Below, one piece after another: positions 11,777 to 55,010 of a stretch of DNA of 64,000 nt (its first letter is position 1; each line of letters opens with the position of its first letter). Below the pieces are notes generated by a model. It did not search any database. It saw nothing but the letters and a program-made list of their open reading frames with translations, and was not told where the DNA came from. Made by a program: the position numbers and the translations under genes. This DNA is from Aspidapion aeneum (taxonomy: Eukaryota > Arthropoda > Insecta > Coleoptera > Brentidae): NCBI GenBank assembly GCA_963576565.1, contig OY755048.1:2052501-2116500 (forward strand), given 5' to 3'.

Positions 11777-12530
11777 TAGCTCATACATATACTATACTAT
11801 AGTAGTGTGAGCTATGGTGATCCTAATTTTTTCGAGAAAAAAAAAGTTGCTCCGATTTCAAAAATTTTTATATATCTTTGCGTTTCAGATGATTTTGAAA
11901 CTTTTTTGTTGCGCCGTCTGTCTGTCTGTCTGTCTGTCTGTCTGTATGTCTGCCTGTCTGTCTGTATGTATGTCTGTAACGACCAACGCACATAACTCAA
12001 AAACTGCTTGGCCGATTTTAATGAAATTTGGTACCTAGGCTGGGTCTTGGGTCGAGATGGTCCCATTTAAAAATGAACAAAATCCACCGAACAGAAACCA
12101 AATAAAAGGGTGGGGGTAGATTTCAAAAATTAGAGTTTATGTGAAAATATGGCGTGTGTGATATCAAACGAAAGGTAATTGAGTCTGCAGTTAAACAAAA
12201 TACATTTTAATTTATTTAAAAAAAAAGGGTGGGGGTATATTTTAAAAATTAGAGTTTAAGTGAAAATATGGCGTGTGTGATATCAAACGAAAGGTAATTG
12301 AGTCCGGAGTTTAACAAAATACATTTTAGTTTTTTGTTTTTTTTTAAGGGTGGGGGTAGATTTCAAAAATTTGAGTTTAAGTCAAAACATGGCTTGTGTG
12401 GTATCAAACAAAAGGTAATTTAGTCTGGAGTTAAATAAAATATATTTCAGTTTTTAGTTATATTAGCTCACACGTACACTATAACTATAGTACCTAGTGT
12501 GAGCTTAGAGGCCCGTATATTGGCAGAGTT
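11777..12530 (+). mobile_element. DINE-1/Helentron-like element, copy 1
   Basis: This is a full-length copy of the commonest family in the window. It starts TAGCTCA in a hairpin of AGCTCACAC type, then has a block ending GTTGCGCCG, a (GTCT)n core, and a block containing ACGACCAACG and GGCCGATTTTAATG. Three ~90-115-bp tandem units (GGGTGGGGGTAGATTTC) follow, then a second hairpin AGCTCACACGT...GTGTGAGCT and the end TTGGCAGAGT. There is no reading frame or long terminal repeat. Copies sit in T-runs without a clear duplication. Subterminal hairpins plus a GTCY microsatellite core are known from DINE-1 elements mobilised by Helentrons; the class assignment is inference. Confidence 0.75.
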
Positions 12531-26587: not shown

Positions 26588-27218
26588 ACTCTGCCAATAT
26601 ATGGGTACCTAGGTTCACACTAGATACTATAGTTATAGTGTACGTGTGAGCTAATATAACTAAAAACTGAAATATATTTTATTCAACTCCAGACAATAAC
26701 CTTTGGTTTGAACCACACAAGCCATGTTTCGACTTAAATTCTAATTTTTTTAATCTACCCCCACCCCTTTTTTTTAACTGAAATGTATGTTTTTTAACTC
26801 CAGACTCAATTACCTTTCGTTTGAAATCACACACGACATATTTTCACTTAAACTCTAATTTTTGAAATTTACTCTTACCCTTTTTTTTAAGAACTAAAAT
26901 TTATTTTGTTTAACCACAGACTGAATTACCTTTCGTTTGGTATCACACACGCCATATTTTCACATAAACTCTAATTTTTGAAATCTACCACCACCCTTTT
27001 ATTTTGCTTGTGATCGGTGGATTTTGCTAATTTTTAAATGGGACCATCCCGACCCAAGACCGAGCCTAGGTACTAAATTTAGTACTAAAATCGTACAAGC
27101 GGTTTTTGAGTTATGCGCGTTGGTCGTTACAGACAGACACACGGCGCGACAAAAAAGTTTCAAAATCATCTGAAACGCAAAGATATATAAAAAATTTTAA
27201 AATTGGATCAACTTTTTT
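26588..27218 (-). mobile_element. DINE-1/Helentron-like element, copy 2, truncated
   Basis: It starts (as the 3' end on the minus strand) at ACTCTGCCAATATATGGG, carries the AGCTCACAC hairpin and three tandem units, and the (GTCT)n core is reduced to a few repeats. It stops within the left block, so the left hairpin is missing. Confidence 0.8.
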
Positions 27219-28710: not shown

Positions 28711-29499
28711 TACTCTGCCAATATATGCGCCCCTAAGCTCACACTAGGTACTATAGTTATAGTGTACGTGTGAGATAATATAACTAAAAACTAAAATATA
28801 TTTTATTCAACTCCAGACTAAATTACCTTTTGTTTGATACCACACAAGCCATGTTTTGACTAAAACTCAAATTTTTGAAATCTACCCCCACCCTTAAAAA
28901 AAAAACTGAAATGTAGTTTATTAAACTCTGGACACAATTACCTTTCGTTTGATATCACACACGCCATATTTTCACTTAAACTCTAATTTTTGAAATATAC
29001 CCCCACCCTTTTTTTTAAATAAATTAAAATGTATTTTGTTTAACTCCAGACTCAATTACCTTTCGTTTGATATCACACACGCCATATTTTCACATAAACT
29101 CCAATTTTTGAAATCTACCCCTTTTACTTGGTTTGTGTTCGGTGGATTTTGTTCATTTTTAAATGGGACCATCTCGACCCAAGACCCAGCCTAGGTACCA
29201 AATTTCATTAAAATCGGCCAAGCGGTTTTTGAGCTATGCGCGTTGGTCGTTACAGACAGACATACAGACAGACAGACAGACAGCCTAGGTACTAAATTTA
29301 GTACTAAAATCGTACAAGCGGTTTTTGAGTTATGCACGTTGGTCGTTACAGACAGACACACGGCGCAACAAAAAAGTTTCAAAATCATCTGAAACGCAAA
29401 GATATATAAAAATTTTTGAAATCGGAGCAACTCTTTTTTCTCGAAAAAATTAGGATCACCATAGCTCACACTACTATAGTATAGTATATGTGTGAGCTA
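28711..29499 (-). mobile_element. DINE-1/Helentron-like element, copy 4
   Basis: Full length, with a duplication inside. The block from GGTACCAAATTTC to GTTACAGACAGAC occurs twice, at about 29196-29281 and 29285-29360. The second version (TAGTACTAAATTTAGTACT, GACACACGGCGCAACAAA) resembles copy 2, so this may be a gene-conversion or recombination product. Confidence 0.8.
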
Positions 29500-31021: not shown

Positions 31022-31748
31022 TACTCTGCCAATATATGGGCCCCTAAGCTCACACTAGGTACTATAGTTATAGTGTACGTGTGAGCTAATATAACTAAAA
31101 ACTGAAATATATTTTATTCAACTCCGGACTAAATTACCTTTTGTTTGATACCACACAAGCCATGTTTTGACTTAAACTCAAATTTTTGAAATCTACCCCC
31201 ACCCTTAAAAAAAACAAAAAACTAAAATGTATTTTGTTAAACTCCGGACTCAATTACCTTTCGTTTGATATCACACACGCCATATTTTCACTTAAACTCT
31301 AATTTTTAAAATATACCCCCACCCTTTTTTTAAATAAATTAAAATGTATTTTGTTCAACAGCAGACTCAATTACCTTTCGTTTGATATCACACACGCCAT
31401 ATTTTCACATAAACTCTAATTTTTGAAATCTACCCCCACCCTTTTATTTGGTTTGTGTTTGGTGGATTTTGTTCATTTTTAAATGGGACCATCTCGAGCC
31501 AAGACCCAGCCTAGGTACCACATTTCATTAAAATCGGTCAAGCGGTTTTTGAGTTATGCGCGTTGGTCGTTACAGACAGACAGACAGACAGACATACAGA
31601 CAGAGAGACGGCGCAACAAAAAAGTTTCAAAATCATCTGAAACGCAAAGATATATAAAAATTTTTGAAATCGGAGCAACTTTTTTTTTCTCGAAAAAATT
31701 AGGATCACCATAGCTCACACTACTATAGTATAGTATATGTGTGAGCTA
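31022..31748 (-). mobile_element. DINE-1/Helentron-like element, copy 5
   Basis: Full length, with both hairpins (AGCTCACAC near 31048 and 31713), three tandem units and a short (GACA)n core on the plus strand. Flanks are A-rich on both sides and no target duplication is clear. Confidence 0.85.
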
Positions 31749-31921: not shown

Positions 31922-32459
31922 ATCAGGACCTGTTCCATACCAGAATGATTCGTATCCTTGTGATTGGACAAAATTGCATAGTTTCATTTCGTTTCAAATG
32001 AAAACATCAAACCATAAATATCAATCAGTGTCAGTAGAGACATTTTTGTTTGGAGTAGTTGTTTGTTGGTTTAACACAGTTTGTGCTTTACATGAGGAAG
32101 GACCAATAAGACCGAGGCCGGTCGTGAATTCGCATGGATCAGTGTGTCTGCAGAATTTCAGGACGTTTCAAACAAGGATGATTCGTATCCTTGTTATTGA
32201 CGTTGGAAAGTGAAAACCAATTTGTTTCATTACATTTCCAACGAAAATATCAAACCATCAGTATAATTTAATACCGGTAGAGGTATTTTCCCTCGCAGTC
32301 GTTGTTTCTGTTGCTGGGAGGTTATGCTCTACGCAAAGCAATATCGCCTGTTTCCACCTCAGGAAGACCCAACAACGCCGAAGATTGGCGTGGATCACTG
32401 TTCCTGCAGATTTTCAGGACGTGTTCCCTCGGAGTTGTTGTTTCTGATGTATACTGGCA
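31922..32459 (+). repeat. Decayed tandem pair of hammerhead-type repeats
   Basis: Diverged relatives of the repeat at 53838-54229 are recognised by GTTGGAAAGTGAAAACCAA, CCGGTAGAGGTATTTTCCCT and TGTTTCTG. Two ribozyme regions, ending near 32123 and 32389, are 266 bp apart. The cores have decayed: the first reads ATGAGGA...GAGG and the second CTCAGGA...GAAG, in place of CTGANGA...GAAA. Stem II remains recognisable only in the first. The repeats should therefore be inactive. Confidence 0.75.
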
Positions 32460-32462
32460 GAA

Positions 32463-32940
32463 ATGCTCAAGTACGGTGTTAAAGCTGTAGTTAATACCCT
32501 CCATATTCTCCTGAATAAAATATTACAAGAAAAACTAATCCCAAACAACTGGAAAGAATCCATAACCATTATTCTACACAAGAAAGGCGATAGAGCAGAC
32601 CTAAAAAACTATCGACCTATAACTCCTCAATGTAATTTATTAGCTTTTAAAAATATACCAAACAGCTGAAATCAAGAGGCAGTGGATATACATTGGTTAT
32701 ACCTGTACTTACTTATGGATCCCAGACAGACAAGACAAATGTTACATGTAAAGCTGACAGATAGAAAAAGAAATGAATGGATAAGAAATAAAACAAAAGT
32801 AAGGGATGTCAGAGGAGAATTAGTAAAATTAAAATGGAAAGTTTCCCCCAAGAGACCTTGGGAAGAAACATGCGGGGACTAGATGGATGAACAGGACGAC
32901 AGACAGAGAAGAGTGGAAGAGGCCCTAGAAGGGGAGGTCT
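32463..32940 (+). pseudogene. Internally deleted LINE reverse transcriptase
   Basis: The first part encodes LLNKILQEKLIPNNWKESI and HKKGDRADLKNYRPIT, the conserved start of the LINE reverse-transcriptase domain. A large deletion then joins this to TYGSQT-like sequence and the tail RQMLHVKLTDRKRNEWIRNK...VRDVRGE, close to the copies at 5543 and 15069. The palm with the catalytic aspartates is missing. It lies between decayed ribozyme repeats. Confidence 0.8.
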
Positions 32941-32945
32941 ATGTC

Positions 32946-33140
32946 TATATTTTCCCTCGGAGTAGTTGTTTCTGTTGGTTTCACATAGCTTATCCACGAA
33001 GCTATATCGCCTGCGTCCACCTCAGGAAGGCCCAATAAGGCCGTAGCCGATCGTGGATTACCATAAATCACTGTGCCTGCAGCTAGAAAGGATCAAACCA
33101 TCAGTAGAATTTAAGGCCGGTACAGGCACAGTGTAGATAT
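32946..33140 (+). repeat. Decayed hammerhead-type repeat, partial
   Basis: It begins TTTTCCCTCGGAGTAGTTGT and carries CTCAGGAAGGCCCAATAAGG followed by CCGTAGCC and GTGGATTACC. Stem II is perfect (GGCC/GGCC) with one unpaired base before it, but the core is mutated (CTCAGGA, GTAG). An incomplete unit. Confidence 0.7.
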
Positions 33141-48662: not shown

Positions 48663-49135
48663 TACTCTGCCAATATATGGGCCCCTAAGCTCACACTAGT
48701 TACTATAGTTATAGTGTACGTGTGAGCTAATATAATTAAAAACTGAAATATATTTTATTCAACTCCACACTAAATTACCTTTTGTTTGATACCACACAAG
48801 CCATGTTTTGACTTAAACTCAAATTTTTGAAATCCACCCCCACCCTTAAAAAAAACAAAAACTAAAATGTATTTTGTTAAACTCCGGACTCAATTACCTT
48901 TCGTTTAATATCACACACGCTATATTTTCACTTAAACTCTAATTTTTGAAATGTACCCCCACCCTTTTTTTAAAATAAATTAAAATATATTTTGTTTAAC
49001 TCCAGACTCAATTACCTTTCGTTTGATATCACACACGCCATATTTTCACATAAACTCTAATTTTTGAAATCTACCCCCACCCTTTTATTTGGTTTGTGTT
49101 CTAGAACTACTATAGTATAGTATATGTGTGAGCTA
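48663..49135 (-). mobile_element. DINE-1/Helentron-like element, copy 9, core deleted
   Basis: The right end and three tandem units are present. The sequence then jumps from TTTGGTTTGTGTTC straight into the left hairpin (CTATAGTATAGTATATGTGT), so the (GTCT)n core and left block are missing. Confidence 0.8.
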
Positions 49136-49502
49136 AAAACAAAAACTAAAATGTATTTTGTTAAAATTTCACTTAAACTCTAATTTTTAAAATATACCCC
49201 CACCCTTTTTTTTTAAATAAATTAAAATGTATTTTGTTTAACTGCAGACTCAATTACCTTTCGTTTAATATCACACACGCCATATTTTCACATAAACTCT
49301 AATTTTTGAAATCTACCCCCACCCTTTTATTTGGTTTGTGTTCGGTGGATTTTGTTCATTGTTAAATGGGACCATCTCGACCCAAGACCCAGCCTAGGTA
49401 CCAAATTTCATTAAAATCGGCCAAGCGGTTTTTGAGTTATGCGCGTTGGTCGTTACAGACAGACATACAGACACACAGACAGACAGACAGACAGACAGAC
49501 AT

Positions 49503-53100: not shown

Positions 53101-53513
53101 TGTATTTTTTATGATTTTTTTCTTAGGTTCGCCATGTTACCCGTGTTTCCCCTACGCCTAGTTTGGGAACTATGACGATACATCTCTCTACACTCTAGCC
53201 AATGATACAACAAACCAATGACAAGGCGCAGTATTGACAAAATGCAAGTTGATAAGCTCTTTATATAATTTTTGATCAAAATATTTGTATACAAAACATT
53301 GTGCTGAATAATGTATATTTTGGATAGGGAACTAGGAATATTGTCGGGTACGATTTTGTTTTAAATCGAACCCTTAAACGAGGGTACCGTAGTAGATCTC
53401 TTGTGTTTATAAAATAAATATAAAACAGATTTAAAAACGTTACAAACTTTAATGATTACTAAATAAAACTCTGTTGCAATTTACAAATTGTTACAGGACT
53501 GTTGTGTGAAACC

Positions 53514-53831
53514 ACCAGAAACAACTACTCCGAGGGAAAATACCCCTACCGGCATTGAATTATACTGATGGTTTGAGGCTTTCGTTGGGAACTTATTAAA
53601 ACTGTTTGGTTTTCACTTTCTCCAACGTAGATCACGAGGATACGAGTGATCCCCGTCCAGTCAGGAACAAATGTTCCATGCCAATCCACGACCGGACCGG
53701 TTTCGACCTTTTGGGCCATCGTCAGGTGAATGTAGGCGATAGCTCCGTGTAGAGCATAAGTTGTTTGAAACCACCAGAAACAACTACTCCGAGGGAAATT
53801 ACCCCTACCGGCATTGAATTATACTGATGGT
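53514..53831 (-). mobile_element. Retrozyme-like hammerhead repeat, minus orientation
   Basis: On the minus strand this is part of one unit, a hammerhead motif (53684-53731), then most of a second unit (CATGGAACATTTGTTCCTGA, GGAGAAAGTGAAAACCAAAC, TGCCGGTAGGGGTATTTTCC). It lacks ~12 bp (CACGTCCTGATA-type) present in the plus copy. At 53831 it meets the plus-orientation copy head to head. Confidence 0.8.
53684..53731 (-). ncRNA. Hammerhead ribozyme motif, type I
   Basis: Read on the minus strand: stem I strand AUUCAC; core CUGACGA; one unpaired U; stem II GGCC-(CAAAA)-GGUC; core GAAA; stem III CCG-(GUC)-CGG; UC with predicted cleavage after C (between 53690 and 53689); stem I return GUGGAU. 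Stem I is 6 bp with one G-U pair, stem II 4 bp with one G-U, stem III 3 bp. All conserved core bases are present. The one departure from consensus is the extra U between CUGANGA and stem II. No Rfam search was possible. Confidence 0.7.
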
Positions 53832-53837
53832 TTGAGG

Positions 53838-54229
53838 TCCGGTCGTGGATTGGCATGGAACATTTGTTCCTGACTATCAGGACGTGTTCCAGACGGGGAT
53901 CACTCGTATCCTCGTGATCGACGTTGGAGAAAGTGAAAACCAAACAGTTTTAATAGGTTACCAACGAAAGCCTCAAACCATCAGTATAATTCAATGCCGG
54001 TAGGGGTATTTTCCCTCGGAGTAGTTGTTTCTGGTGGTTTCACACAACTTATGCTCTACACGGAGCTATCGCCTACATTCACCTGAGGATGGCCCAAAAG
54101 GTCGAAACCGGTCCGGTCGTGGATTGGCATGGAACATTTGTTCCTGACTATCAGGACGTGCTCCAGACGGGGATAACTCGTATCCTCGTGATCGACGTTG
54201 GAGAAAGTGAAAACCAAACAGTTTTGTTA
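53838..54229 (+). mobile_element. Retrozyme-like hammerhead repeat, plus orientation
   Basis: It starts inside stem III (TCCGGTC) with predicted cleavage after 53844. A complete 274-bp unit runs from 53845 to the next cleavage site at 54118, followed by ~110 bp of a second unit ending AAACCAAACAGTTTT. There is no reading frame. Tandem hammerhead-bounded units of 170-400 nt are the known form of animal retrozymes and of some insect satellites; mobility by circular RNA and a borrowed reverse transcriptase is inference. Confidence 0.8.
54077..54124 (+). ncRNA. Hammerhead ribozyme motif, type I
   Basis: Stem I 54077-54082 with 54119-54124; CUGAGGA 54083-54089; unpaired U 54090; stem II 54091-54094 with 54100-54103; GAAA 54104-54107; stem III 54108-54110 with 54114-54116 (loop GUC); U54117 C54118 and predicted cleavage. 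It differs from the minus-strand motif only at the variable seventh core position (G for C). All stems are intact and in the order and spacing the fold requires. Confidence 0.7.
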
Positions 54230-55010
54230 CAGGACTTTTCTTATGACCTAGAAAACAAACAAGACCCAAAATATAACAATAAAACTTTAACTTACCAAAA
54301 TAACAAACTGCAAAATATTCTTCAAACCAAAATTTTTTATGTTTCTTTACTGATAATTAGTTTAGAGGTTTTAGTTTAAATTCAACAAAATTTAGACTGT
54401 GATTACCGAAATCTCCTGAAAGTTTGGGTTTTTATTAACGGTAGGTTGGACCTAAGTAATTCATTACCCGCTGATTGATGAGCTTGGAGGAACCAAGTCA
54501 GTGGCGTTTCTAATAATCCTAAAGTTTACTTTACATTTTAGCTAATGAGACAAGTAAACCCAAACGAAAACAGAGATAAAATGACATTTTATAGACAACA
54601 CTGTCTAACCTCACAGTTTTTCCGTAGCCAATCACTTTGAATGTATTCCCACGCTTAAAGGCCTTCACACACTCCTCCGTAGCATGGTGCATAACGCGTG
54701 GCATGGGGCTTTCGACCAATCAACGATCGAATAGCAGCGGCCATAATGGTTTGGCATAAGAAAAGTCCATAAGGTTGAACTTCTATGCGCCATGCTATGC
54801 GCTATGCATTTTTGTGTGTGATCGGCTTAACCATTACAACAATCACTCTTTACTGTTTAGTAGTTTTCAGTAGATCCGAACCGATCCAAATGTTTACCAT
54901 TTTGGAGGGAGGCGGAACCACTTTCTTATCTTTACAAAACCATGTTTTGTGCTTTTCATTTTTCAAAACTGGTTTCCTACAGTGGCACAGTCAAGGATAA
55001 TTTGCATTCC
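54230..55010. other. Unclassified sequence
   Basis: CAGTGGCGTTTC at about 54500 resembles a hAT left end, but no partner is seen. No gene was recognised. Confidence 0.35.

Follow-up and report, generated by a model that had tools for sequence, protein, structure and literature searches.

Animal non-LTR retrozymes, as portrayed in the relevant passages of Cervera and de la Pena (2020, PMC7229834), carry a type I hammerhead ribozyme in units of 150-450 bp that are repeated in tandem, and have a low G+C content; their copy number is high and, when target-site duplications (TSDs) are present, these exceed 4 bp. Penelope-like elements (PLEs) are named there as a strong candidate helper of retrozymes, with LINEs as further candidates, and the same source states that cleavage by the axolotl hammerhead is better in the dimer. 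The PLE of the green anole, in purified form, was shown to cut both strands, to extend both of them and to begin at two internal sites next to each other; the start site is AC-rich and does not differ between strands, the interval between the two start sites corresponds to the 'tail' of PLE copies, and unprocessed RNA was used in vitro (PMC11167929). Rotifer PLEs, in the portion of PMC3846280 that describes them, have inverted terminal copies, TSDs of 8-10 bp and a 31-bp tail. The pDo500 satellite of Dolichopoda cave crickets is, in the corresponding part of PMC2837043, an insect satellite in which the hammerhead is better conserved than the remaining repeat sequence, as is the case here; dispersed insertions with TSDs are not mentioned in that part, and our comparison with it concerns features other than length and sequence.

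The window (the whole 64,000-nucleotide stretch of the Aspidapion aeneum genome analysed here) contains a member of a new family of animal non-LTR retrozymes with variant features. The sequence-only reading of the window had assigned it to the animal retrozymes, and this assignment holds in the features examined: there is a type I hammerhead, a 274-nt unit with 47% G+C and a TSD of more than 4 bp, and the copies number in the thousands and include a long array. The family differs from the animal non-LTR retrozymes of PMC7229834, as far as the passages on them go, by an extra base after A9 and by dispersed copies that are often divergent and two-armed, ending at two fixed internal sites. Set beside the published retrozymes, cleavage and circles are predictions here.

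The insertion and its hammerheads

Both hammerheads of the window are carried by a single 725-bp insertion (53501-54225), composed of an inverted arm of 337 bp (53501-53837, minus strand, approximately 1.3 units) and a direct arm of 388 bp (53838-54225, plus strand, 1.4 units) of the 274-nt unit. The inverted arm has unit 204 at its outer end (site S2), descends from there to unit 127 and has one 15-nt deletion compared to the direct arm, which runs from unit 268 to unit 107 at its outer end (site S1, 54225, plus strand). S2 (unit 204) is also found internally in the direct arm, at 54048 on the plus strand, and a hairpin seen in folds (unit 131-198; 53975-54042, plus strand) is predicted between S1 and S2. 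The 11-bp word GTTACAGGACT is present on both sides of the insertion (53490-53500 and 54226-54236) and nowhere else in the window. If two ambiguous T are included, the left copy becomes TTGTTACAGGACT and starts at 53488, giving a TSD of 11-13 bp. Older, diverged tandem copies with broken cores (approximately 69% identical) lie at 31922-32449 on the plus strand, followed on the same strand by an older partial copy (32948-33122, approximately 82% identical). The extra A reported earlier for this 33.0-kb copy is present (CTCAGGA-A-GGCC), in a broken core. The sequence-only reading was silent on the TSD, on the two arms being one insertion, on the older array and on how the insertion arose.

Two further features of the window were observed. 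At 32427-32968, a LINE-like fragment splits the older retrozyme array, and CCCTCGGAGT[T/A]GTTGTTTCTG stands on both sides of it, possibly as a 21-bp TSD. Arrays of a 115-119-bp unit were found at 12100-12460, 26665-27005, 28786-29121, 31093-31446 and 48738-49332, several of them near (GTCT)n or (ACAG)n runs.

The two 48-nt hammerhead motifs (minus strand, 53731-53684; plus strand, 54077-54124) have the architecture first described for them: stem I of 6 bp, stem II of 4 bp followed by GAAA, a stem III of CCG/CGG with a GUC loop closed by an A-U pair, and UC at the cleavage position. As also described, they differ only at core position 7, which is C in the minus-strand motif (CUGACGA) and G in the plus-strand motif (CUGAGGA, 54083-54089). 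In the plus-strand copy the core is followed by an extra U (54090), stem II (54091-54094/54100-54103) and GAAA (54104-54107), with predicted cleavage after 54118; the minus-strand copy also has the extra U and its predicted cleavage is after 53690. The conserved core, the three stems and the opening at stem I place both motifs in type I, and the one departure from the hammerhead consensus is the extra base after A9. A viroid hammerhead, reportedly described by De la Pena and Flores in 2001, is said to have an extra nucleotide in its consensus core as well, between A9 and stem II, and the present family resembles it in this respect.

A descriptor of all three stems gave exactly two matches in the 64 kb and none in 150 dinucleotide-preserving shuffles, while a looser hammerhead pattern gave three matches in the window vs. 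0.22 expected. At a relaxed Rfam threshold both motifs matched Hammerhead_HH9 (RF02275), with E values of 1e-4 (minus strand) and 1.6e-4 (plus strand); the match is full-length, with the internal loop of stem I and loop II both aligned, but the best score is 28.2 bits, against a gathering score of 52, and the motifs have the extra base after A9. No Rfam match was found in the window at the gathering score, literally an outcome that the sequence-only reading had named as speaking against the ribozymes; it is outweighed by the genome-wide conservation of the core. The minimum-energy fold of 58-nt pieces is not the hammerhead, and in an 80-nt context the hammerhead has -14.7 kcal/mol vs. -21.7 kcal/mol for a competing fold; this is a caution only, because folding programs ignore tertiary contacts. 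Judged by descriptor and shuffles, both hammerheads are real, their cleavage itself being predicted.

The sequence-only reading had also placed a plus-strand cleavage site at 53844, 274 nt from that at 54118. The spacing is correct, but 53844 was rejected as a second plus-strand ribozyme: only the terminal bases GGTCCGGTC (53836-53844, plus strand) are present at the arm junction (53837/53838), and core, stem II and GAAA are missing because the sequence 5' of the site belongs to the inverted arm. With one complete hammerhead per strand, no 274-nt RNA is expected in cis from the locus, and the release proposed earlier is unsupported.

Copies of the family in the host genome

In the host genome (1.29 Gb, 149 contigs), a first pattern without the extra base gave no match genome-wide, while 2767 exact core-region matches (1496 + 1271) were obtained with one extra base and none in the reversed control; the suggestion that the extra U might be a family trait was thus borne out. 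A variant with a 6-nt loop II gave 102 matches (control, 0). The window element is one among thousands of copies of a small mobile element. The exact pattern was absent from viral_contigs and genome_contigs, collections in which this genome's own records may be omitted.

A tandem array of 274-bp units is located on contig C3 within 57.780-57.840 Mb. Probes matched at 57.785 and 57.840 Mb and in three 9.9-kb stretches, which hold 108 hammerhead copies, and did not match at 57.790 and 57.820 Mb; the right end of the array, at 57,840,069, is at unit 204. Tandem units of retrozyme size with a type I hammerhead are therefore a property of the family (274-nt unit, 269-nt subfamily, C3 array), the window itself holding just 1.3 and 1.4 units. 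Of the 17 exact copies with the broken core CTCAGGA, 9 are located in one separate stretch (G000:C3:82022167-82042568), as if an array with a dead ribozyme had grown.

Three types of unit were distinguished. Type A, that of the window (274 nt), reads GAAACCGGTCCGGTC; types B and C (approximately 269-272 nt by match spacing) read GAAACCGGTC, with a stem III of one A-U pair and a CCGG loop. In this one-pair stem III with a palindromic loop, B and C resemble the axolotl hammerhead, as it is presented in the corresponding passage of PMC7229834. By sequence, A looks like B with a duplicated CCGGT. Divergence from the window unit is greater in B and C copies, which makes A probably the younger form, a point that the tree does not settle; nor does the tree trace the 5-nt duplication to one origin, and its change counts, based on a pattern that mislabelled L023 and L039, were disregarded. 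The predicted self-duplex of the stem III arm is stronger in A (-17.9 vs. -8.3 kcal/mol), and A may consequently act as a monomer, a dimer or both. The G+C content of the unit (47.4%) is under 50% and exceeds the <45% that a figure legend in PMC7229834 states. With regard to self-pairing, which is high in retrozyme RNA, the circular minimum free energy of the unit is -80.8 kcal/mol (z -2.0 in 100 shuffles), and 2 of 105 sampled 274-mers of the window were as low.

The invariant core is more conserved than its surroundings. In 33 dispersed loci found by similarity, 19 of 1295 core positions differ (1.5%), compared to 1686 of 31418 outside the hammerhead (5.4%); in the C3 stretches the figures are 0 of 904 and 212 of 20421. 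The hammerhead stems are paired in 95.3% of cells (alignment A2, 49 loci) and the hairpin at unit 131-198 in 93.6%. Covariation was not above shuffles in either case, with too little variation in the hammerhead stems, and the alignments therefore prove neither fold. One dispersed insertion (L023) has the broken core CUCAGGA in five of its six units, in both arms, and therefore the RNA that was copied had an inactive ribozyme; this would be explained if a neighbouring unit cleaved it in trans, or if uncut RNA was the template.

Runs of (TTCGG)n-type repeats were read at 8 of 20 chromosome ends (L100, L102, L104 and L107-L111). The first arthropod case of this type of telomere motif was reported from earwigs, according to the pertinent part of PMC11829193. 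Interstitial runs of this type abut the 5' side of two retrozyme insertions (L012, at 1356; L018, at 1357) and could be telomere-like ends joined to cDNA.

Ends of the insertions

The mapping of ends covered 64 loci that are not part of the C3 array, together with the window, and gave 69 insertion groups after repeated loci were dropped (L056, L064-L066, L073 and L074 repeat other places; L058 and L059, possibly related by duplication, were kept). S1 is also where the similarity query stops; a different, tandem query was used to measure the ends, and both sites appear in the pattern-found loci as well. S1 was defined as unit 96-115 and S2 as unit 192-211, together 40 of the 274 positions, for which the chance expectation is 14.6%. 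The RNA-sense 3' ends were concentrated at these sites (60/83; 32 at S1 and 28 at S2), with 23 elsewhere, while 3 of 48 5' ends were at S2 and none at S1. By source of the locus, 3' ends at S1 or S2 amounted to 19/36 in pattern-found and 41/45 in similarity-found loci. No cluster of ends was found at the cleavage site (unit 274) among the mapped insertions; a few ends at unit 268-269, in the set before all repeats were removed, are partly repeats of one place. S1 reads CAGTTTT/AA and S2 CACACAAC/TT, the slash marking the end. The A+C content is 0.64-0.79 upstream of S1 and ordinary at S2 (0.57 at unit 204).

Two-armed insertions are almost always divergent, that is, with the 3' ends outside: 19 groups among the 69 were divergent, one was convergent and one mixed. 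The first 100 exact hammerhead places listed included nine divergent and no convergent neighbours within 3 kb. Both ends were in view in 17 of the divergent groups: 11 had one end at S1 and the other at S2, one was S2/S2, none was S1/S1 and five had at least one other end; at least 11 mixed-site groups in 12 would arise under free choice with a probability of 0.003. TSDs of 10-14 bp flanked 9 of 42 insertions (6/10 two-armed and 3/32 one-armed), compared to 0/42 with mismatched flanks, and a further 12-bp TSD at lower identity was seen at L040. The end pattern is the signature of target-primed reverse transcription with its start within the RNA, at two fixed places and on each of the two target strands.

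Star-like variation among the units of an insertion was considered as proof of a circular template and rejected: the non-singleton fraction within insertions (0.08, n = 17) is like that of C3 array runs of 4, 6 and 8 units (0.05-0.12). Since the units of one insertion resemble each other but are no more star-like than C3 neighbours, circle and linear multimer are not separated by this measure. Nor is a circular template required for internal starts.

Penelope-like loci and the mobilisation of the retrozyme

The same genome contains PLE-like genes. At least 91 GIY-YIG matches were obtained with 150 of the 633 candidates scored, and five loci (L075-L079) were read, the reverse transcriptase domain being shown for L075 only. 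L075 has a 613-aa ORF with RVT_1 and GIY-YIG domains and inverted 1-kb terminal repeats (98%); its tail measures 35 nt and its TSD 11 bp. Minimal intact hammerheads are present in three of the five loci (L075, L078 and L079), and in each of these an additional base separates A9 from stem II; when the letters of the five loci were shuffled 200 times, five such matches arose in total. In L076 and L077 the cores are broken. At the relaxed Rfam threshold no hammerhead was found in the five loci, only microRNA-family matches (13 in L075 and one in the other four) that were taken for simple repeats. L077 also contains a 390-bp inverted repeat (1259-1648 and 1977-2365, 96.7%) downstream of its GIY-YIG ORF and of a decayed minimal hammerhead. 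The retrozyme and the GIY-YIG loci thus share an insertion style (in L075) and an odd ribozyme trait.

The window element is thus likely to be an animal non-LTR retrozyme insertion mobilised by a PLE-type GIY-YIG reverse transcriptase. We hold it for rather probable, with somewhat more reserve, that the RNA, perhaps a circle, has two fixed entry points used by both cut strands, that the 96-nt offset between them is a version of the PLE tail, that PLEs are the helpers and that the odd hammerhead with the extra base is common to both. Fixed ends, the use of both strands and the offset were read from insertion structure, as distinct from an enzyme assay. The features common to the retrozyme and to anole (PMC11167929) and rotifer (PMC3846280, in its descriptive part) PLEs are an internal start at two sites, both strands, inverted terminal copies, a tail and short TSDs; the right end of the C3 array at unit 204 also supports mobilisation of this type. 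Unlike PLEs, the retrozyme codes for no protein, and its sites are 96 nt apart compared to a PLE tail of 30-40 nt.

Under this model, tandem copies would be transcribed and the hammerheads are predicted to cut the RNA into monomers of approximately 274 nt (or 269 nt), which a host ligase may circularise, as the published retrozymes suggest. The retrozyme RNA would be bound by a Penelope-like enzyme that combines reverse transcriptase and GIY-YIG endonuclease, and both target strands would be cut approximately 10-14 nt apart, the spacing seen in the TSDs. Each cut end would then prime inside the RNA at S1 (unit ~108) or S2 (unit ~204), where the ends cluster. If priming takes place from both ends, in most cases at S1 from one and at S2 from the other, and the copy extends beyond one full unit, the product would be a divergent two-armed insertion like 53501-54225, and the 96-nt offset between its arms would correspond to the tail of PLEs.

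Several observations stand against the PLE reading. The retrozyme unit shares no sequence with the five GIY-YIG loci at E<=1. The AC-richness of the anole start site holds upstream of S1 and hardly at S2, and the anole strands are alike in start site while the retrozyme arms usually differ. The 23 of 83 3' ends elsewhere, the 33 of 42 insertions without a TSD of at least 10 bp and the 5 of 17 two-armed groups with another end are also against it. Against the ribozyme step are the hammerhead not being the minimum-energy fold and the copying of L023 with an inactive ribozyme.

A LINE-type enzyme could have mobilised the retrozyme, the two-armed copies arising by ordinary twin priming; we consider this unlikely. 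Twin priming also yields divergent arms and TSDs of such size, which counts for this explanation, and LINE-like sequence is recognisable by eye in the window near 32.5-32.9 kb. LINEs and PLEs are both published candidates in the passages of PMC7229834 on this subject. Twin priming should, however, leave one variable outer end, and here both are fixed and mostly different (11/17); moreover, the 3' ends lie inside the unit, no poly(A) was seen at the junctions inspected, and the PLE tail is a direct parallel.

That the family is ordinary satellite DNA, spread at the DNA level by recombination or excised circles and carrying an incidental hammerhead, is improbable. The 274-bp-unit array on C3, with its hammerhead copies, fits such an origin, and part of the copies may stem from segmental duplication, but TSDs, fixed 3' ends, scattered 5' ends and divergent arms do not, and neither does the conservation of the core over the rest of the unit in both dispersed and array copies. 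Highly improbable is a linear transcript with its own 3' end at S1, for example a Pol III stop: S1 does end in TTTT, but S2, where a T run is lacking, occurs almost as often (28 vs. 32 of 83), and a second TTTT, at unit 165-168, has no comparable end cluster. A chance resemblance to a hammerhead is scarcely credible in view of the descriptor that none of the 150 shuffles reached, the HH9 E values of about 1e-4 and the core conserved across copies, even if Rfam gave no match at the gathering score, covariation was not above shuffles and the hammerhead is not the minimum-energy fold.

Mobilisation by PLEs is thus our preferred reading: the retrozyme is a new family of a known kind, probably PLE-mobilised, with cleavage, circle and helper all predicted. 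Fixed internal start sites or divergent two-armed insertions of retrozymes were not found in the relevant portions of the open papers (PMC7229834, PMC7761336, PMC4918200, PMC11722881, PMC6155905 and PMC2837043). The literature on protein-less animal retrozymes, in the same portions, names LINEs or PLEs as candidate movers from coexistence and shared ribozymes. Insertion ends are countable mechanistic evidence, and they point to PLEs. If this is true, unit ~108 and ~204 should be the places where purified PLE protein starts on the 274-nt RNA. The 5 nt by which the hammerheads without and with a proper stem III differ also make a natural pair for comparing cleavage as dimer and as monomer.
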